From the NCBI GenBank assembly GCA_029553375.1, contig JAKPCH010000035.1, positions 1-64,000 of the forward strand: DNA of 64,000 bases. The letters run 5' to 3'. Position 1 is the first letter of the stretch; each line of letters begins with the position of its first letter. The notes under the pieces were generated by a model that was not told the origin of the DNA, did not search any database, and worked only from the letters and a program-made list of their open reading frames with translations. Made by a program: the position numbers and the translations under genes. The stretch comes from Deltaproteobacteria bacterium. GTDB lineage: Bacteria; Desulfobacterota; Syntrophia; Syntrophales; UBA8958. Of the stretch, positions 31,228 through 41,511 are shown in pieces.

Positions 31228-32484
31228 ATGGGCCTCGTACAAACGGCGAACTTGCGGGAAGGGATGGTCCTCGCCGGGGACGTCCTCGACACCTCGGGCC
31301 GCCTGCTCATCGCCAGGGGGACGGAGCTCACCCCCCGCGGGATCCGGGTCCTCAAGATGTGGGGGGTGATCGAGGCGGACGTCGAGGGGGTGGGGGACGA
31401 GGAAGGGGGCAGCGGCCTCGGCCCCGACCTCGATCCCGACTTTGTCGCCGCGGCGGAGCGAAAGGCCAGGGCCCTCCTTCCTTACACGAACATCGACCAC
31501 CCGGCGGGAAAGGCCCTCTACCGCCTCTGCGTCGCCCGCCTCGCCCGGGGCAAGACGGATCCCGAGACGGTGGCCCGCTGGTCGCGACCGGAGGAATATC
31601 ACCCCGATAACACGGACGAGGGGAAGGTCCGGATCCCCGTCAACATCGTCAAGGCCGTCGGCGACAGCATCCCCCTCTCCACCTTGCCCGACGTCTTCCA
31701 CCAGGTGAACGAGGTCCTCCTGCGCCCCTCCAGCTCCGCCCAGGAGATCGCCGAGGTCATCGAGAAGGACACGAACCTCTCCGCCCGCATCCTTAGAATC
31801 GTCAACAGCGCCTTCTACAACTTCCCCTCCCGGATCGACAAGATCTCCCGGGCCGTCACCATCATGGGGACCAGGCAGATGGCCACCCTGGCGAGCGGCA
31901 TCAACTGCCTGAAGATCTTCCAGATGATACCCTCCCGGGTCGTCGACATGAAGTCCTTCTGGGAGCACAGCCTCCTGTGCGGCCTCGGGGCGCGGCTCCT
32001 GGGGGGTTACAAGAACATCCAGAACACGGAGCGCCTCTTCGTGGCGGGGATGATCCACGACATGGGTTTGTTGGCCCTCTACAACCGCCTGCCCGATGTC
32101 GCCTGCCTGATCATCGAGAAGGCCCGCAGCGAATTCCGGCCCCTCCACGAGGTGGAGAAAGAGGTCTTGGGCCTCGATCACGCCGAGCTCGCCCATATCC
32201 TCATGAAGCGCTGGCGTTTTCCCCTGTCCCTGGAGACGATCATCAGGTATCACCATAGCCCCCTCCGGTCGCCGAACACCCTGGAGGCGGCGATAGTCCA
32301 TTTGGCGGACATGATCGCCATCGCCGCCGGCTCAGGTTTCAGCGGCGAGAGGAGGGTCCCCCCCCTGGAGGCGGAGGTCTGGGACCTTTTGGGTATCTCC
32401 CCCTGCACCATCCCCGTCGTGGCCGACCAGGCCCTCAGGCAACTGGATGAGATCTTCCATTATTTCCTCTATGATGCGCCTTAG
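31228..32484 (+). CDS. HDOD-domain signalling protein
   Basis: A 418-residue protein. Residues 1-55 resemble the N-terminal DUF3391-like module seen before HD-GYP domains (NLREGMVLAGDVLDTSGRLLIARGTELTPRGIRVLKMWG). Residues about 155-400 form an HDOD domain: EIAEVIEKDTNLSARILRIVNSAFY, AVTIMGTRQMATLASG, FWEHSLLCGLGARLL, HDMGLLALY, LGLDHAELAHILMKRWRFP. HDOD proteins lack the full metal site of HD-GYP phosphodiesterases and usually act as scaffolds in signalling. It overlaps the next gene, a hybrid kinase, by about 38 bases. Confidence 0.88.
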   Translation: MGLVQTANLREGMVLAGDVLDTSGRLLIARGTELTPRGIRVLKMWGVIEADVEGVGDEEGGSGLGPDLDPDFVAAAERKARALLPYTNIDHPAGKALYRLCVARLARGKTDPETVARWSRPEEYHPDNTDEGKVRIPVNIVKAVGDSIPLSTLPDVFHQVNEVLLRPSSSAQEIAEVIEKDTNLSARILRIVNSAFYNFPSRIDKISRAVTIMGTRQMATLASGINCLKIFQMIPSRVVDMKSFWEHSLLCGLGARLLGGYKNIQNTERLFVAGMIHDMGLLALYNRLPDVACLIIEKARSEFRPLHEVEKEVLGLDHAELAHILMKRWRFPLSLETIIRYHHSPLRSPNTLEAAIVHLADMIAIAAGSGFSGERRVPPLEAEVWDLLGISPCTIPVVADQALRQLDEIFHYFLYDAP

Positions 32485-34597
32485 GGAACCCCCCCTCCAC
32501 CTCGACCTCAACCTGGAGGAGCGGATCCGCTACCTCGAAGGGGTGAACCGCTTCGTCCTCGACGCCCTCGACACGGCGGCGACCCTGGGGGATTTCCAGG
32601 GACAGATCAACCGTCAGGGCGACCCCGCGGTGATCATCGCGGAGACGCGCCGCCGCCTCAGGGCCCTCATCCCCTTTCGGGGGACGGCATTCTATCTCGT
32701 CAACGACGAGACGAAGGAGTTCGAACCTTTCCAAATCGACCCGCCCGCGGAGGAGGCGTTTTTCCGCCGGGCGACGGACCAATTGATCGAGGAGGGGACC
32801 TTCGCCTGGGCCCTTAGGGAAAAGAGGCCCCTGATCGTCCCCTGCCCCGGCGTCCCCAAGAGGCTCCTCCTCCACGTCATGGCCACGGCCTCGCAGATCC
32901 ACGGGATGTTCATGGGGATCCTCAAACCCCACGAGGAAAAGGTCAACGACATCTCCCTCTCCTTCCTTTCCCTGATCCTCCTCCACAGCTCCAACGCCCT
33001 GGAGACCTACTCCCTCTACGAACAGATCGGCAGGATCAAGGAGGGCCTCAACGGCGCGAAGAACTACCGGAACCTCTTCGAAGCCGCCCCGGACGGCGTG
33101 GAGGTCCTCGACCAAACGGGACGCCTCGTGGACTGCAACGCCATGCTGTTGAAGATGACGGGCTACGGCCGGGAGAAGATCATGGGCGCCCATCCCTCCC
33201 TCTGGTGCCCCGAGGCGGGCGAGGAAAACTCTTCCCGTTTCCTCGCGGCCCTGAAAAAAGAGGGGGAGAGGGAGGCGGAGGTGGAGTTCGTCAATGCCCA
33301 AGGGGACCGTATCCCCGTGTGGCGCAAGGAGAGGGCGTTCTATGACGACGAGGGGCGTTTTCTCGGCGTCGTCGTCTACAACCGCGACCTGTCCCGCCTG
33401 AAAAAGGCCGAGGCGGAGCGGAGGGAGCTGGAGGCCCGCCTCCAGAGGGCGAAACGCATGGAGGCCCTGGGTACCCTGGCGGGCGGCGTGGCCCATGACC
33501 TGAACAATATCCTCAGCGGCCTCGTGAGCTACCCCGACCTCCTCCTGATCAGGACGCCGCCGGGGGACCCCATGCGGAAACCCCTCGAGGTCATCAAAAA
33601 ATCGGGGGAAAAGATCGCCGCCATCGTCCAGGACCTCCTCACCCTGGGGAGGCGCGGCGTCGTCCAGACGGGCGTCGTCGATCTCAACGCCGTCGTCGCG
33701 GAGCACCTGCGCTCGTCGGAGCACGAGCGCCTCTGTTACTACCACCGGGGCGTGCGGTTCCGGACGGATCTTAAGGAGGGGCTGAACAACGTCTCGGGAT
33801 CGAAGTTCCACCTGGGGAAGGCCGTCATGAACCTCCTGTCCAACGCCGCCGAGGCCATCACGGGCGAGGGGGAGGTCACCATCACCACCCGCAACGTCAC
33901 CCTGACGGGTCCCCTCAAGGCCCTCGACCGTATCCCCCCGGGGGACTACGTGGTCCTGACCGTGGCCGACACGGGCAGCGGTATCTCCCAGGAGGACATG
34001 GAGAGGATCTTCGAGCCCTTCTACTCCAAGAAGGTCCTGGGGAGGAGCGGCACCGGCCTGGGGATGACGGTCGTCTGGGGGATCTGCAAGGACCACGGGG
34101 GCCACATCGACATCAGGAGCCTCCCCGGCCGGGGGACGGAGATCTCCCTCTACCTGCCCGCGACGCGGGAAAAGGCCGCGGCCGAGAAGGCCCCAATCCC
34201 GCCGGAGGCCTACCAGGGCAAGGGGGAGAAGATCCTGGTGGTGGACGACTCACCCCAGCAGCGGGAGATCGCCTCCGAGATCCTGGAAGAGCTCGGTTAC
34301 CGCGTCGTCACGGCGGCGAGCGGCGAGGAGGCCGTGGCCTATATCAAGGATCACACGGTGGACCTCGTCCTCCTCGACATGATCATGGACCCCGGGATGG
34401 ACGGCCTGGACACCTATCGGGAGATGATCAAGGTCCGACCGGGTCAGAAGGCCGTCATCGCCAGCGGCTTCTCCGAGACGGAGCGCGTCCGGGAACTGCA
34501 TCGCCTCGGGGTGAGGCAGTACATCAAAAAGCCCTACCTCATGGAGCAGATCGGTCTGGCCATCCGCTCCGAACTGGACGGCGAGGGATCCCCTTAG
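32447..34597 (+). CDS. Hybrid histidine kinase (PAS-HisKA-ATPase-receiver)
   Basis: A 716-residue soluble hybrid kinase. N-terminal GAF-like region (about 55-195), PAS (about 205-318), HisKA with His350 in LAGGVAHDLNNILSGLVSY, ATPase domain with NLLSNAAEAITG, VADTGSGISQEDMERIFEPFYSKK and GTGLGMTVVWG, and a C-terminal receiver with phosphoacceptor Asp in LVLLDMIMDPGMDGLDTY and switch Lys in YIKKPY. The start is uncertain: ATG 32447 lies inside the HDOD gene; ATGs at 32471/32474 are alternatives without a ribosome site. The overlap argues for coupling to the HDOD protein. Confidence 0.9.
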   Translation: MRSSIISSMMRLREPPLHLDLNLEERIRYLEGVNRFVLDALDTAATLGDFQGQINRQGDPAVIIAETRRRLRALIPFRGTAFYLVNDETKEFEPFQIDPPAEEAFFRRATDQLIEEGTFAWALREKRPLIVPCPGVPKRLLLHVMATASQIHGMFMGILKPHEEKVNDISLSFLSLILLHSSNALETYSLYEQIGRIKEGLNGAKNYRNLFEAAPDGVEVLDQTGRLVDCNAMLLKMTGYGREKIMGAHPSLWCPEAGEENSSRFLAALKKEGEREAEVEFVNAQGDRIPVWRKERAFYDDEGRFLGVVVYNRDLSRLKKAEAERRELEARLQRAKRMEALGTLAGGVAHDLNNILSGLVSYPDLLLIRTPPGDPMRKPLEVIKKSGEKIAAIVQDLLTLGRRGVVQTGVVDLNAVVAEHLRSSEHERLCYYHRGVRFRTDLKEGLNNVSGSKFHLGKAVMNLLSNAAEAITGEGEVTITTRNVTLTGPLKALDRIPPGDYVVLTVADTGSGISQEDMERIFEPFYSKKVLGRSGTGLGMTVVWGICKDHGGHIDIRSLPGRGTEISLYLPATREKAAAEKAPIPPEAYQGKGEKILVVDDSPQQREIASEILEELGYRVVTAASGEEAVAYIKDHTVDLVLLDMIMDPGMDGLDTYREMIKVRPGQKAVIASGFSETERVRELHRLGVRQYIKKPYLMEQIGLAIRSELDGEGSP

Positions 34598-34619: not shown

Positions 34620-35435
34620 TCAACCCTTGTCCTTCGCCTCCTCCCAGAGGCGGTCCAGCTCCTGAAGATCCGTCCCGGGGAGGTCCTTGCCATCTTCACG
34701 CAGACGCCTCTCCATATAGGCGAAGCGGGCGATGAATCTCTCGACGCTGCCCCGGAGGGACTCCTCGGCCTCCACCTCCAGAAACCGACAGAGATTGACC
34801 AACGTGAAGAGGCAATCCCCCATCTCCGCCGCGACGACCTCGCCCCGGCCCGTCAAGGCCGCCTCCTTCAACTCTTCGAGCTCTTCCGCCACCTTCGCCC
34901 ACACCCCCCCGACGTCGGGCCAGTCGAAACCGACGGCGGCGGCCCGCCGCTGGATCTCCTGGGCCCTCCTCAGGGCGGGGAGGGAGCGGGGGATCCCGTC
35001 GCCGATCCCCTTCCTTCCCCGCTGCTCCACCTCTCTCTTGATGGTCTCCCAGTTGGCCTTCACCTCTTCGACGCCGGCGACGGTGACGCGGCCGAAGACA
35101 TGGGGGTGTCGGCGGATCATCTTTTCCCTCACGGTTTGGCAGACCTCTTCCAAGGTGAACTCCCCCCGTTCCTCCGCCAGGACACAGAGAAAGAGGACCT
35201 GAAAGAGGAGATCGCCGATCTCCTCTTTCACCTCCTTTGGATCGCCGGCATTGACGGCGTCGACCACCTCGTGGGCCTCCTCGAGGAGATACCTCGTCAG
35301 GTCCCGGTCCGTCTGGCGGCGGTCCCAGGGACAGCCCCGGGGGCCCCTGAGGGTCCGGACGAGGTCGAGGAGGGAGGCCACGCCCGTGCACCCGTCCTCC
35401 GGAGGCCCCTTTTGATCCTTGTCTCTCTCGGTCAT
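34620..35435 (-). CDS. mazG: Nucleoside triphosphate pyrophosphohydrolase MazG
   Basis: MazG (271 residues, normal for the two-domain form) hydrolyses (d)NTPs to monophosphates, cleaning the nucleotide pool. First domain: VRTLRGPRGCPWDRRQTDRDLTRYLLEEAHEVVDAV with the EExxE/ExxD metal motif continued by KEEIGDLLFQVLFLC; second domain: KVAEELEELKEA, AAEMGDCLFTLVNLCRFL. The linker HPHVFG and ANWETIKREV are typical. ATG 35435 faces the RNase T2 gene. Confidence 0.93.
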   Translation of the reverse strand: MTERDKDQKGPPEDGCTGVASLLDLVRTLRGPRGCPWDRRQTDRDLTRYLLEEAHEVVDAVNAGDPKEVKEEIGDLLFQVLFLCVLAEERGEFTLEEVCQTVREKMIRRHPHVFGRVTVAGVEEVKANWETIKREVEQRGRKGIGDGIPRSLPALRRAQEIQRRAAAVGFDWPDVGGVWAKVAEELEELKEAALTGRGEVVAAEMGDCLFTLVNLCRFLEVEAEESLRGSVERFIARFAYMERRLREDGKDLPGTDLQELDRLWEEAKDKG

Positions 35436-35540
35436 GGAAAGATGCCCCCTTGGCAACCCTTCTGCATCCCTTCCCTTTTTCGGGCAAAAGGGGTATTGGA
35501 TCGTCATCTCATAACAGGGGAGCGAAGGGAGGAGGTTATC

Positions 35541-36209
35541 ATAAAACGTAAGGGCATCGTTTGGACCCTGCTCTTCGTCCTCCTCACGGCCGTCGCCCCC
35601 GCCGGGGCGGCGTGGGGAGGCGGTGTCCCGGGGCGTTTCGACTTCTACGTCCTGGCCCTGAGCTGGTCGCCCGCCTTCTGCGACGAGGCCCGGAACCGCG
35701 ACCACCCCCAGTGTCGGGCCGCCTCGCCCTCCGCCTTCGTCCTCCACGGCCTCTGGCCCCAGTACGAACGGGGCTACCCCCGTGACTGTTCCGCCATCCC
35801 CTTCCCCGAGGGGCTCAAGGCGGAGTTCCCGAAACTCTTCCCCCACGACGCCCTCTACGCCCACGAGTGGCGAAGGCACGGCACCTGTTCGGGCCTCTCG
35901 CCCCGGGGTTACCTCGCCCTGGCCAAGAGGATCCGAGAGGGGGTAATCATCCCCCCGGCCTACGAGGGGCCGGACAAACCCCTCCGTCTCACGGTGGAAC
36001 GGCTCCGTTCCGATTTCATCCGCTCCGACGGCCGCCTGTCGCCCCGGGGCATCGTCCCCGTCTGTTCCCACGGGGGGCGCTTCCTGAAGGAGGTCTGGCT
36101 GTGTTTCGAAAAAGACGGCCGACCCCGGGACTGCAGCGAGGAGATCCTCAAGAGGGGCCGCAAGACCTGCCGCCAGGAGACCTTTCTCCTCAAGCCGCCC
36201 CGGCCTTGA
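35541..36209 (+). CDS. Exported ribonuclease T2 family protein
   Basis: A roughly 222-residue RNase T2. Signal peptide (about 1-24, GIVWTLLFVLLTAVAPAGA), then FYVLALSWSPAFCD, catalytic site I FVLHGLWPQYERG and catalytic site II AHEWRRHGTCSG, both with intact histidines, plus paired cysteines (CDEARNRDHPQC, CSHGG, CFEKDGRPRDC) for disulfides. The enzyme would degrade RNA non-specifically in the periplasm or outside. AAGGGAGGAGG (35525-35535) is followed five bases later by ATA (35541) and two bases later by ATC, with no ATG, GTG or TTG in reach. The nearest canonical in-frame starts, TTG 35494 and ATG 35440, precede the ribosome site and would give an overlong signal n-region. Confidence 0.85.
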   Translation: MKRKGIVWTLLFVLLTAVAPAGAAWGGGVPGRFDFYVLALSWSPAFCDEARNRDHPQCRAASPSAFVLHGLWPQYERGYPRDCSAIPFPEGLKAEFPKLFPHDALYAHEWRRHGTCSGLSPRGYLALAKRIREGVIIPPAYEGPDKPLRLTVERLRSDFIRSDGRLSPRGIVPVCSHGGRFLKEVWLCFEKDGRPRDCSEEILKRGRKTCRQETFLLKPPRP

Positions 36210-37609: not shown

Positions 37610-38140
37610 TTATTTGACGACCACGGGGAGGGGTTGGCGGTCCGAGGCCCACAGCCCCTTCAGACCGTGGGCCGCCGGATCGGGGCAACGGACCTCGACC
37701 TGTCCGTCCCGGCGGGTGACAAGATAGGGCCTGCCCGTGGCGGGGCAGCGGAGATCGGCCGGGGGCGTCTTCCCCCCCTGGAGGAGGGCGGCGGCCTTCC
37801 AGAGATTGTTCAGGCAGGCGTCGGCGACGGCGTCGGTCTCGTAGGTGCCGAGGCGAAGGGGCTTGTTCGGTTTCATCGCCTCCATGACCCGGGGGGCCTG
37901 GAGGGCCGCGACGACGAGGCAAAGGAGGACGACGACGCCCAGGGTGATCCGCCAGGCCCTGGTATCCCTGAGGCGGGGCCGGGGGGGTGCCTTTTCCTCC
38001 TTTTCGGCGATGTAACGCTCCGCCCGCTCCACGGCGCACCGGGGGCACCAGAGTTCCCCCTCGGCCTTCACCGTCCCGTCCAGGGGTATCTCGGCACCGC
38101 AACCCCGGCAGCGGGGCCGGGCCTTTTCCTCCTCACCCAC
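37610..38140 (-). CDS. Zinc-ribbon single-pass membrane protein, unknown
   Basis: A 176-residue protein from GTG 38140, backed by GGGGGAAG seven bases upstream. The N-terminus has a zinc ribbon (CRGCGAEIPLDG then LWCPRC), followed by a charged linker, one membrane helix (about 67-84, ITLGVVVLLCLVVAALQA) and a C-terminal domain with a second cysteine pair (LRCPATGRPYLV, VEVRCPDPAAHGLKGL). The CPATGRPY segment resembles a second zinc knuckle. No known family. It lies between the pseudopilin and truA genes, so a link to the pilus-like genes is possible. Confidence 0.65.
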   Translation of the reverse strand: MGEEEKARPRCRGCGAEIPLDGTVKAEGELWCPRCAVERAERYIAEKEEKAPPRPRLRDTRAWRITLGVVVLLCLVVAALQAPRVMEAMKPNKPLRLGTYETDAVADACLNNLWKAAALLQGGKTPPADLRCPATGRPYLVTRRDGQVEVRCPDPAAHGLKGLWASDRQPLPVVVK

Positions 38141-38185: not shown

Positions 38186-39091
38186 TCACTGCACCACCCT
38201 CAGGTTGTCGAAATAGACCTCCGAATTGTCCCACGTCCTGAATCCCCCCATGCCCGACGGGAAGGTGGAGTCCTTGAACTCCAGGACCTTCGTCCCGTCG
38301 ACGGTGATGACGTGCTGGTCCCCCTTCACGGCCACGGAGACCTGATGGGACTGACCGTAGACGGGGAAACCGGCCGGCATGGGCGCCCGGGCGATGGGGT
38401 ATTGCTCTTTCCCGTCTATGACCTTGCGCACGATGAACGCGTTGCCGAAACCGGGATCGTACTGAAAGATGTAACCCGTGACGTCCTTCTTCCCGTCCGA
38501 CCGGTAATAGATACCGTAACCGTTGCCGGCCGTGAGGGTGGCCGTCGTCCTGATCTCGTAATCCGTCCAGGCCTTGTCGCCGAAGGCCAGGCGGGCCTCC
38601 CCCTTTTTGCCCAGGGACCTCAGGGCGCCGTCGACGAGGGCCCAGTCGCCGGAGTTGGCCTTGAGACCCCCCATGTTGTCGAAGGAGCTTGAAAACAGAA
38701 CGTTCTCTGATGGTTGCGCGACGGCGGCGTAATGGATGGAACAGGCCAAGATGGGCTGGGGGCTCTTCTGGACCCAGGCGTAGACACCCCCGCTGGGGCA
38801 TTGGGGTTCCTTCGCGAGGAAACCGGCCCTGACCAGTTCGTCTAATCCCGCGCTCTCCCTGGCCCGGTCGAGGTTGAAGGCCGCCTCGGCCCGCTCGGCG
38901 GCGTAGCGGTTCCCGAGACAGGTCGTGGCGCGGGCCCTCTCCAGGTAAGCCTTCATGAGGGGGACGGCTATGGTCGTCAAGACACCTATGAGGGCGATGA
39001 CGACCATCAGCTCCAGAAGGGTGAAACCGCCCCTCGATCTCAGGCCTCTTTCGCTCAAGCCTTCACCGCCTTTCGACATCGAAAAGGACAT
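38186..39091 (-). CDS. Pseudopilin/prepilin-like protein with LamG-like C-terminal domain
   Basis: A 301-residue protein with a type III prepilin signal: RSRGG cut before FTLLELMVVIALIGVLTTIAVPL, with the Glu at mature position 5. Residues about 45-125 are pilin-like. The C-terminal half (about 128-301) is a beta-rich module (VLFSSSFDNMGGLKANSGDWALVDGALRS, YEIRTTATLTAGNGYGIYYRSDG, EVYFDNLRVVQ) like concanavalin/LamG or 3-keto-disaccharide hydrolase folds that bind sugars. A shorter leader from TTG 39055 (MSERGLRSRGG) is plausible. It overlaps the ATPase gene by 29 bases. Confidence 0.83.
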   Translation of the reverse strand: MSFSMSKGGEGLSERGLRSRGGFTLLELMVVIALIGVLTTIAVPLMKAYLERARATTCLGNRYAAERAEAAFNLDRARESAGLDELVRAGFLAKEPQCPSGGVYAWVQKSPQPILACSIHYAAVAQPSENVLFSSSFDNMGGLKANSGDWALVDGALRSLGKKGEARLAFGDKAWTDYEIRTTATLTAGNGYGIYYRSDGKKDVTGYIFQYDPGFGNAFIVRKVIDGKEQYPIARAPMPAGFPVYGQSHQVSVAVKGDQHVITVDGTKVLEFKDSTFPSGMGGFRTWDNSEVYFDNLRVVQ

Positions 39092-41192
39092 TCCTGATCT
39101 TGAGGAGGAGTATATCTTTCTTGACCGGTTTCTTCAAGTAATCGAGGGCCCCCATCTCCAGGCCCTTGATCTCGTCCTCCTCTCCCACGCGGCCCGTCAG
39201 GAAGATCAAGGGCGCCCCGATCCCCTTCTGGTTCTTGATCTCCAACAACTTGAAGCCGTCGAGGTTGGGCATGTTGATATCGGAGATGATCAGGTCGAAC
39301 TCCTCCTTGGCGAGGGTGATGAGGGCGTCGATGCCGTCGGCGGCCAGGGCCACCTCGTAGCCCGCCCCCTTCAGGATCCGTTCGATGAGGAGCTGACTGT
39401 CCTGGTCGTCCTCCACCACCAGGATCCTCCCGGCACGTCTCCTGCTCTTCTCGGCGACCCGTTGCGGCCTCTCCGACGGCTCCGCCGGGGCGGCGGGGAT
39501 CTCCTCCACCAGGATCTTCTCATAGACGTCCCTGACGGGGAAGACGAGGTCCCGGACCTTCTCCACGGCGTGGTTGCTCATGAGGTAGTGCCCCTGGCCG
39601 CGGATGAACTCCCGGATCTTCAGGATGGGGGCCCCCCGGCGGATCAGGTCGCTCACGGCGGCATCGAAGGGGATGACCTCGTAAACCCCCTCCCGGCCCC
39701 GGTAGCCCTCGATACACCGGTGACACCCCACGGGGTGGGCCGACCTGGCTGGCAGCTCATCGGTGAAGGGGGAAAGCATCTCCTTCTCCTCCTCAGTCAG
39801 GGGCTCCACGCGCCGGCAATGGGGACAGAGCTTCTTCAGCAGGCGCTGGGCGATGATGCCGATGAGGGCCTCCGCCATGATATCCCTCGTGACCCCGAGG
39901 CGCTCGAGGCGGAAGATGGCCGTCGTGGCGTTGTTCGTGTGGAGGGTGGAGACGGTCATGTGACCCGTGCTGGCGAAGTCCACGGCGATCCTGGCGGAAA
40001 AGTTGTCCCTGATCTCGCCGAGGTAGAGGATGTCAGGGTCCTGGCGGACGGACGATTTCAGGAGGGCCTCGAAGGTCACCCCCGCCTTTTCGTTCACCTG
40101 CTGCTGATTGGCGTTGGGGATGCGGTACTCCACGGGGTCCTCGACGGTGATGAGGCTCCTCTTCGTCGTGTCCACGTGGGAGAGGAAGGTGTAGAGGGTC
40201 GTCGACTTCCCCGATCCCGTGGGCCCCACGACGAGGAGAAGGCCGTAGCGCCTTTTGGCGAAATCCATGAGGTTGGCGATCTGGGCCTTCGTCAGGCCCA
40301 GCTCCTCGAAGGGCACGGGTTTCGCCGTCGGTTCGAGGAGCCTCATGATGAGGCTCTCCCCGTTGGGCGTGGAGGTGGTGGCGAGGCGGAGCTTGAAGTT
40401 CCGCCGGTCGATCACGACCTCCACGGCGCCGTCCTGGGGTCTCTGCTTCTCTGCGATGTCGAGACCCGCCAGGGCCTTGAGACGGGAGATGACCATGGTG
40501 CCCGTGGCCTTCTTCAGGGTGAACATGTCGCGCAGGTCGCCGTCGATGCGAAATCGGACGACCGTGTCCCGTGCCTTGGGCTCGATGTGGATATCGCTGG
40601 CCCTCTCCTTGACGGCGCTGTAGAGGATGTTGTTGGCGACGTAGACGACGGGCCTCTTCTCCAGGTCCTCCTCCGAGACCGTCTCGGGGGAGTCGATGAC
40701 GGTCAGGACGGTTCTTTCCCCCTCCACGGCGTCACCGCCGTCCCCGCCCCCTTCATCCCTACCCGCCCGTCCCCCCAGGACCTTCTTCAGGACGGACGGC
40801 TCGGCGACGGCCAGACGGATGTCCCGGTCGGGGGGAACCCGCTTGTTCAGGATATCGATGAGTTCCATGAGAAAGGGGTTGCTGAGGAGGAAGGCCGTCT
40901 CGCCCTCGGGGGTGATGATGGGGGCGATGAGGTTCCAGAGGCAGAAATCACGGGAGAGGTATCCCTCCTGAAACTGCTCGGGGACCGTGCCGGGGAGGTA
41001 GGGGACCTCGAGGTAGGCCGCCACGAGGGACGCCAGCCGCCCCTCCGGGATCCCCAGAGAAAGGGCCAAGCCGTAGAGCTGGGGAGGGCGCAGGTCCTTC
41101 ACCCTTTCCCACACCTCGCCGGGGACGGCGAGTCGTTCCCTCAGGAAGGCCTTGAATCCGTGGAAGTCAAAGTAGGGAAGCCGGGCCCCCAT
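39063..41192 (-). CDS. Type II secretion/type IV pilus assembly ATPase with C-terminal receiver domain
   Basis: A 709-residue fusion. Residues about 30-140 are a divergent MshEN-like N-domain; 180-560 form a GspE/PilB ATPase with Walker A GPTGSGKST (323-331), the Asp/His boxes around ITVEDPVEYRIPNANQQQVN and STLHTNNATTAIFRL, and a tetracysteine zinc site (Cys456, Cys459, Cys490, Cys493). Residues about 588-705 are a complete receiver domain with Asp638 (LIISDINMPNLDGF), T/S switch (LIFLTGR) and Lys (YLKKPVKKD). Such ATPases power pilus or pseudopilus assembly; a covalent receiver is unusual. An Hpt gene lies four bases upstream and the pseudopilin gene overlaps downstream. Confidence 0.88.
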   Translation of the reverse strand: MGARLPYFDFHGFKAFLRERLAVPGEVWERVKDLRPPQLYGLALSLGIPEGRLASLVAAYLEVPYLPGTVPEQFQEGYLSRDFCLWNLIAPIITPEGETAFLLSNPFLMELIDILNKRVPPDRDIRLAVAEPSVLKKVLGGRAGRDEGGGDGGDAVEGERTVLTVIDSPETVSEEDLEKRPVVYVANNILYSAVKERASDIHIEPKARDTVVRFRIDGDLRDMFTLKKATGTMVISRLKALAGLDIAEKQRPQDGAVEVVIDRRNFKLRLATTSTPNGESLIMRLLEPTAKPVPFEELGLTKAQIANLMDFAKRRYGLLLVVGPTGSGKSTTLYTFLSHVDTTKRSLITVEDPVEYRIPNANQQQVNEKAGVTFEALLKSSVRQDPDILYLGEIRDNFSARIAVDFASTGHMTVSTLHTNNATTAIFRLERLGVTRDIMAEALIGIIAQRLLKKLCPHCRRVEPLTEEEKEMLSPFTDELPARSAHPVGCHRCIEGYRGREGVYEVIPFDAAVSDLIRRGAPILKIREFIRGQGHYLMSNHAVEKVRDLVFPVRDVYEKILVEEIPAAPAEPSERPQRVAEKSRRRAGRILVVEDDQDSQLLIERILKGAGYEVALAADGIDALITLAKEEFDLIISDINMPNLDGFKLLEIKNQKGIGAPLIFLTGRVGEEDEIKGLEMGALDYLKKPVKKDILLLKIRNVLFDVERR

Positions 41193-41196
41193 CTAT

Positions 41197-41511
41197 CTAA
41201 CCTTTCACGACCTCGACCTTCCCCAGGTAATCGTCCAGGCGCTTCAACTCCCGACGGATGGCGATCCCGTCGCCCGCCTTGGCCGCCTCTTCCATGCCGC
41301 GGCCGATGGAGGTGATCTCGTCGAAACCGTAGCCCCCGCCGGAGCCCTTCATCTTGTGCCCGATCCCCCTGATCTTTTCGAAATCCCCCGCCGCGAGGGC
41401 CTCCCCGATCGCCTCGACGTCCCGCCGCCGGTTGGCGAGATAATTAGGTATCAGATCCCAAAGATCCTCGTCCACGACCACCCTGATCCGATCCGTTTCC
41501 TTTTCCATCAT
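41197..41511 (-). CDS. Stand-alone Hpt phosphotransfer protein
   Basis: A 104-residue four-helix Hpt protein. The phosphorylatable His52 sits in IGHKMKGSGGGYGFDEITSIG, the standard Hpt motif HxxKGxxxxxG. It would pass phosphoryl groups between a hybrid kinase receiver and another receiver. The adjacent receiver-ATPase is the obvious partner; a hybrid kinase is encoded at 32447-34597 but a link is inferred. GGGAGGAACA precedes the ATG. Confidence 0.88.
   Translation of the reverse strand: MMEKETDRIRVVVDEDLWDLIPNYLANRRRDVEAIGEALAAGDFEKIRGIGHKMKGSGGGYGFDEITSIGRGMEEAAKAGDGIAIRRELKRLDDYLGKVEVVKG

Follow-up and report, generated by a model that had tools for sequence, protein, structure and literature searches.

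A pilus/secretion-type ATPase with a built-in receiver domain and an adjoining phosphotransfer protein: a candidate phosphorelay target across uncultured phyla

Results

We examined a 64,000-nucleotide stretch of DNA (the window; positions 1 to 64,000 of contig JAKPCH010000035.1, assembly GCA_029553375.1) from a Deltaproteobacteria bacterium of the order Syntrophales, in which three minus-strand genes encode a free-standing histidine phosphotransfer (Hpt) protein, a GspE/PilB-type assembly ATPase that carries a receiver domain, and a prepilin. The Hpt protein (41197..41511; 104 amino acids) matched PF01627 (E = 2.8e-8, over the gathering score), has its conserved His within GHKMKGSGGGYGF, and is followed, 4 bases after its stop, by the ATG of the motor. 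The motor (39063..41192; 709 amino acids) matched PF00437 (T2SSE; E = 2e-111, residues 178-548) and PF00072 (E = 2.7e-24, residues 590-699), the latter marking a receiver domain at residues about 588-705 (39078..39431). Its reading frame overlaps by 29 nt that of the prepilin (38186..39091), which has the N-methylation motif GFTLLELMVVIALIG (N_methyl, 4e-7) and a C-terminal PF06439 domain (7e-11). An earlier interpretation made from the letters of this DNA (hereafter the sequence-only reading) had described a motor with a complete C-terminal receiver (Asp638), a free Hpt four bases upstream and an overlapping downstream prepilin with a sugar-binding-like domain. All of this was borne out, an open reading frame (ORF) check placing the three genes at exactly the same coordinates; since PF06439 is concanavalin-like, the wording "sugar-binding-like" is acceptable.

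The window motor has Walker A and B motifs, an Asp-box, a His-box and two CxxC pairs, and in an alignment of 68 homologues these core ATPase motifs were invariant or almost so. The tetracysteine zinc site, found in GspE/PilB and not in PilT, was likewise kept (C456 and C459 in 68/68; C490 and C493 in 67/68). The active site of the receiver is complete, with an acidic pair (D595/D596), the phospho-acceptor D638, T666 and K688; the phospho-Asp was kept in 61 of the 62 homologues in which that column is aligned, and the acidic pair, Thr and Lys in nearly all. Against the named equivalogs, the motor scored 391.9 bits for type_II_gspE (cut-off 630) and 370 for type_IV_pilB (cut-off 676), and it is therefore a member of the T2SSE superfamily that is neither named gspE nor pilB. 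Residues 1-~165 appear to form a divergent MshEN-like domain specific to the receiver-motor subfamily; PF05157 matched it under the cut-off (E = 0.0034) and exceeded the cut-off in three relatives (L107, L048 and L065). The published motif for binding of cyclic di-GMP (c-di-GMP) by MshEN domains (RLGxx...) was not evident in the receiver-motor family consensus, so we do not claim c-di-GMP control.

An AlphaFold model of the motor, made with 35 aligned homologues (mean predicted local distance difference test score, pLDDT, 86), contains an ordered ATPase core and a (beta-alpha)5 receiver, between which a linker (571-584) of low pLDDT is disordered or flexible. The modelled core matches the structures of T. 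thermophilus PilF and Geobacter PilB (template modelling scores up to 0.90-0.93). By sequence, the best relatives of solved structure were GspE, PilF and PilB (V. cholerae GspE, E = 2e-83), and no chain joining T2SSE and a receiver was among the best solved-structure matches listed.

The sequence-only reading had recommended a search for receiver-fused GspE/PilB motors with adjoining Hpt genes. Across 84,980 species genomes, the motor had about 66 homologues (36-62% identity, mostly full-length), and the fusion is thus not restricted to one genome. Close homologues came from members of its own taxonomic family (61-63% identity), and others from a second family of the order (52%). From their record titles, the homologues were assigned to about ten phyla and include Thermodesulfobacteriota, other "Deltaproteobacteria" (NCBI name Myxococcota), Elusimicrobiota, Fermentibacterota, Omnitrophota, Actinomycetota (Coriobacteriia), Nitrospirota, Gemmatimonadota and Aminicenantes, with one bin each from WOR-3, Chloroflexota and cyanobacteria. 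The N-terminal region serves as a subfamily marker: almost every family motor scores at least ~126 bits with it, and ordinary motors score at most 31. When 395 genomes drawn from the phylum were searched with this marker, 12 had the motor, which is thus widespread but patchy. On a quick tree of the ATPase core that included a small sample of ordinary motors, 64 receiver-bearing motors formed one block, separate from the ordinary PilB/GspE of the same order, with three Nitrospirota receiver-bearing motors outside it.

The usual protein of this family is ~850 amino acids long and has the architecture REC–MshEN-like–T2SSE–REC, where REC denotes a receiver. The second, N-terminal receiver was present in 56 of 68 motors, and its phospho-Asp was kept in all 56. 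Within the group that includes the window motor, the N-terminal receiver is degenerate in L028 and L031, which lack the acidic pair, and absent from the window motor and from L027, L029 and L033; the C-terminal receiver is intact throughout. By this comparison, the window motor derives by reduction from a motor with two receivers, in a lineage that lost the N-terminal receiver. At L043 (6739-9483), the Hpt, the N-terminal receiver and the motor lie in separate frames, possibly through assembly error or decay.

An Hpt gene lay on the same strand within 700 bp of the motor in 51/68 loci, often in overlapping frames; with the distance extended to 1 kb and both strands counted, the figure rises to 57/68. 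Several of the loci without a nearby Hpt end at a contig edge. No Hpt was found in the 1.5-kb flanks of 14 ordinary motors. The phospho-His was kept in 57 of 59 aligned Hpt homologues. A hybrid histidine kinase with at least two C-terminal receivers (HK-REC-REC) was encoded within 1.5 kb of the motor in 31/68 loci. These operon kinases are HisKA hybrid kinases, not CheA-type, and the Asp was kept in both receivers of the kinases compared (33/33). The components also occur fused: in Fermentibacterota, a kinase-REC-REC-Hpt fusion adjoins the motor, and in an Elusimicrobium metagenome-assembled genome a single ORF (L061:7998-11150) reads REC-Hpt-REC-MshEN-T2SSE-REC, as confirmed by Pfam. In five more loci drawn with the N-terminal marker, an Hpt is encoded close to this motor, and 4/5 also had an HK-REC-REC kinase; among the marker-drawn loci, L148 and L155, and also L150 and L151, show the same cluster. 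Some operons further encode a REC-GGDEF diguanylate cyclase (L107:5161-6440, L050:1543-2825 and L148:6206-7189), and two of the three place an extra or divergent Hpt next to it, which suggests joint phosphorelay and c-di-GMP control.

Pilin genes, often with PF06439, adjoin the motor mainly in Desulfobacterota-like loci and a few others, and the filament subunit is thus not the most conserved component. Downstream of the prepilin, the window encodes a further conserved member of the operon, absent from the sequence-only reading: a 176-amino-acid membrane protein (37610..38140, minus strand) with a zinc ribbon (two CxxC), one transmembrane helix and a domain with conserved Cys; the ribbon is predicted to be cytoplasmic and the Cys domain extracytoplasmic. 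Homologues occur in 20 loci, adjoining the motor or within the same cluster, and are fused to Hpt in L035 (5880-6746) and L090 (5927-6748) and to a PF06439 domain in L054. A fold search returned just insignificant zinc-ribbon/LIM-like matches, and none for the extracytoplasmic part. It is a reasonable guess that this protein links the cytoplasmic relay and motor to the extracytoplasmic pilin side.

The minus-strand run as a whole begins with an NlpC/P60-type lipoprotein gene (42896-41544), continues through the Hpt, motor, prepilin and zinc-ribbon genes, and ends with a truA-like ORF; its remaining gaps are 32, 45 and 6 nt. Because the whole arrangement is conserved in other genomes, chance is excluded as its origin. 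Elsewhere in the window, a plus-strand ORF (35100-36209) encodes a ribonuclease T2 family protein (PF00445, 2e-15) with the domain in its C-terminal half; it overlaps an opposite-strand mazG-like ORF, and its real start is probably further downstream.

Querying the genome of the window organism with an operon kinase gave one outstanding match, on contig C70 (C70:1567-3588), at 52% identity and 731 bits against 166 bits for the runner-up. This kinase (1123 amino acids; dCache-PAS-PAS-HisKA-HATPase-REC-REC) has an intact H-box and two intact receivers, and it fell inside the operon-kinase clade of a kinase tree in which some branches are weakly supported. These comparisons make it the most likely kinase of the window motor, acting in trans, the lineage having relocated its kinase gene away from the motor. 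Only two Hpt domains were found in a search of the genome, the window Hpt and that of one CheA. The same genome has three GspE/PilB-type and two PilT-type motors, and a sole PilC-type platform (T2SSF) on contig C37, away from the motor; with a single platform available, the receiver-motor probably shares it. Contig C55 of this genome encodes, at about 116799-119093 (L109:8800-11094), another assembly ATPase that is fused to a sensor domain (GAF-MshEN-T2SSE, 764 amino acids).

Discussion

We think it likely that a phosphorelay in this organism runs through the Hpt protein to D638 and thereby alters the activity or the docking of the motor. The sensor kinase (HK-REC-REC) would autophosphorylate and hand phosphate to its own receiver or receivers, from which it would pass to the free Hpt encoded beside the motor; the Hpt would then phosphorylate Asp638 of the receiver fused at the motor C-terminus. 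Phosphorylation would change the ATPase activity of the motor hexamer, its assembly or its docking on the single PilC platform, and would in this way gate, without transcription, whether the co-encoded pilin or pilins are assembled or secreted. In the window lineage, the C-terminal receiver would be the remaining input, the N-terminal one having been lost. Directly observed here are the sequences and domain architecture, the conserved catalytic residues, the linkage and fusion of the genes, and clade membership; that phosphate is transferred, in which direction and with what sign of effect on the motor, we infer. Direct control of the motor by a kinase, which the sequence-only reading had raised as a possibility, draws strong comparative support in so far as a relay ending on the motor is meant (intact receiver, linked Hpt and HK-REC-REC genes, and Hpt-motor and HK-Hpt fusions); the particular kinase that it named, at 32447-34597, is not the probable partner.

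Several observations weigh against such a relay or limit its reach. The window motor has no HK-REC-REC gene near it, and the C70 kinase might act on receivers other than that of the motor. Three loci with ample flanks (L070, L074 and L086) have no nearby Hpt, and one marker-drawn motor (L154) lacks the C-terminal receiver. Co-evolution of Hpt and C-terminal receiver was dropped as evidence: their partial correlation, 0.37 over all phyla, fell to ~0.04 without Fermentibacterota, Coriobacteriia and Nitrospirota, so that the excess over the ATPase core disappeared with the divergent phyla. Finally, all named homologue records are metagenome-assembled or "uncultured" genomes, and some phylum labels are possibly wrong; phyla represented by single bins need care.

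The receiver may govern the localization or the binding partners of the motor, through recruitment to the pole or platform or docking of a partner, rather than its catalytic rate. We regard this as possible, but less probable than not. The flexible linker holds the receiver away from the ATPase core in the model, and phosphorylation of PilG, which controls PilB localization, localizes PilB in Pseudomonas (PMC12632253), while EmvR (see below) shows that a receiver can alter the ATPase rate of PilB. Rate and localization are both sub-cases of the proposed relay to the motor.

A phosphate sink or feedback role for the fused receiver is unlikely. Here the receiver would report motor state to the relay, or drain phosphate from another Hpt target such as a diguanylate cyclase, with pilus control residing elsewhere. 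The cyclase-bearing operons described above do indicate that the relay may have several targets, and MshEN-type domains can bind c-di-GMP in other motors (PMC10333796). However, the window operon offers no second receiver as a target, a sink would work without being fused to a motor, and most family motors carry two receivers.

It is similarly doubtful that the kinase at 32447-34597 phosphorylates the Hpt and, through it, the motor. This is a hybrid kinase of the same window, with kinase and receiver domains by Pfam, and in principle any hybrid kinase could charge the sole free Hpt. Yet it scored 92 bits to an operon kinase against the 731 of the C70 protein, has one receiver rather than two, and grouped outside the operon-kinase clade among unrelated kinases; on these grounds we rejected it as first-choice partner. 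It also lies on the opposite strand from the motor, behind a gene for an HDOD protein (31228-34597 for the two, plus strand), with which this PAS hybrid kinase apparently forms an unrelated signalling pair.

Receivers that are not phosphorylated exist generally, and the N-terminal receiver has degenerated in two near relatives of the window motor, but a purely structural or dimerization role without phosphorylation in vivo is very improbable for the C-terminal receiver, as degenerate structural receivers usually lose the acidic pair, phospho-Asp, Thr and Lys that are kept here in nearly all homologues with an Hpt adjoining. Both this role and that of a sink or feedback device are less likely than a phosphorelay acting on the motor.

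Taken across phyla, the loci lead us to favor, with somewhat less confidence than we place in the relay itself, an undescribed and probably old family of signal-gated pilus motors in many uncultured lineages, in which a multistep phosphorelay ends on the motor and controls a surface filament without transcription, two receivers providing two inputs. Its parts would plausibly be the kinase, the Hpt and the receiver-motor-receiver protein, joined in part of the family by the zinc-ribbon membrane protein and the pilin.

The usual picture of a response regulator is a transcription factor or a second-messenger enzyme, and that of a pilus motor is a machine controlled by separate binding partners. 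In the loci described here, the receiver is built into the motor, and many phyla keep a dedicated phosphorelay next to it. This suggests that pilus building may be switched on or off directly by sensor proteins, bypassing gene expression. If true, this would give lineages for which metagenomes are the sole record a self-contained means of post-translational pilus control, and it would pose the direct question of how one phosphorylated residue alters a GspE/PilB hexamer. The conserved zinc-ribbon membrane protein would be added to the parts list of the pilus.

We found no receiver-fused GspE/PilB motor in the open-licence literature. The window motor shares with PilB, GspE and MshE ATPases (PDB 5tsg, 5oiu and 1p9r) the whole ATPase core, the catalytic motifs and the tetracysteine site, and differs in its fused receiver (two in most of the family), its divergent N-terminal domain and its own clade in the ATPase tree. 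EmvR of Xanthomonas oryzae is a lone receiver that binds PilB and reduces the ATPase activity of this motor by ~40%, an effect lost in the D15A, D59A and T87A variants (PMC11973254). There too a receiver acts on the extension motor in a manner that depends on the phospho-site; however, EmvR is a separate repressor for which no Hpt is described, whereas the window receiver is part of the motor and has an Hpt adjoining. Receiver proteins also act post-translationally on the extension motor in the PATAN-REC PixE/PixG-PilB1 system, in which PixE binds PilB1 of Synechocystis (PMC7690835), and in PilG/PilH-PilB. Those proteins act in trans with chemotaxis-like or photoreceptor input, whereas in the window system the receiver is fused to the motor and neither a PATAN domain nor CheA is linked. 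FimX (REC-PAS-dGGDEF-dEAL) is likewise a receiver-containing regulator coupled to PilB (PMC10333796), but it is a separate c-di-GMP-binding protein that works via PilZ. Hybrid-kinase phosphorelays of the ArcB and RcsC kind have the same succession of HK-REC-(REC), Hpt and terminal receiver; the predicted terminal output of the window relay is a pilus/secretion motor and not DNA binding or a cyclic-nucleotide enzyme. The kinds of component are thus known, and their combination and phylogenetic spread appear to be new.

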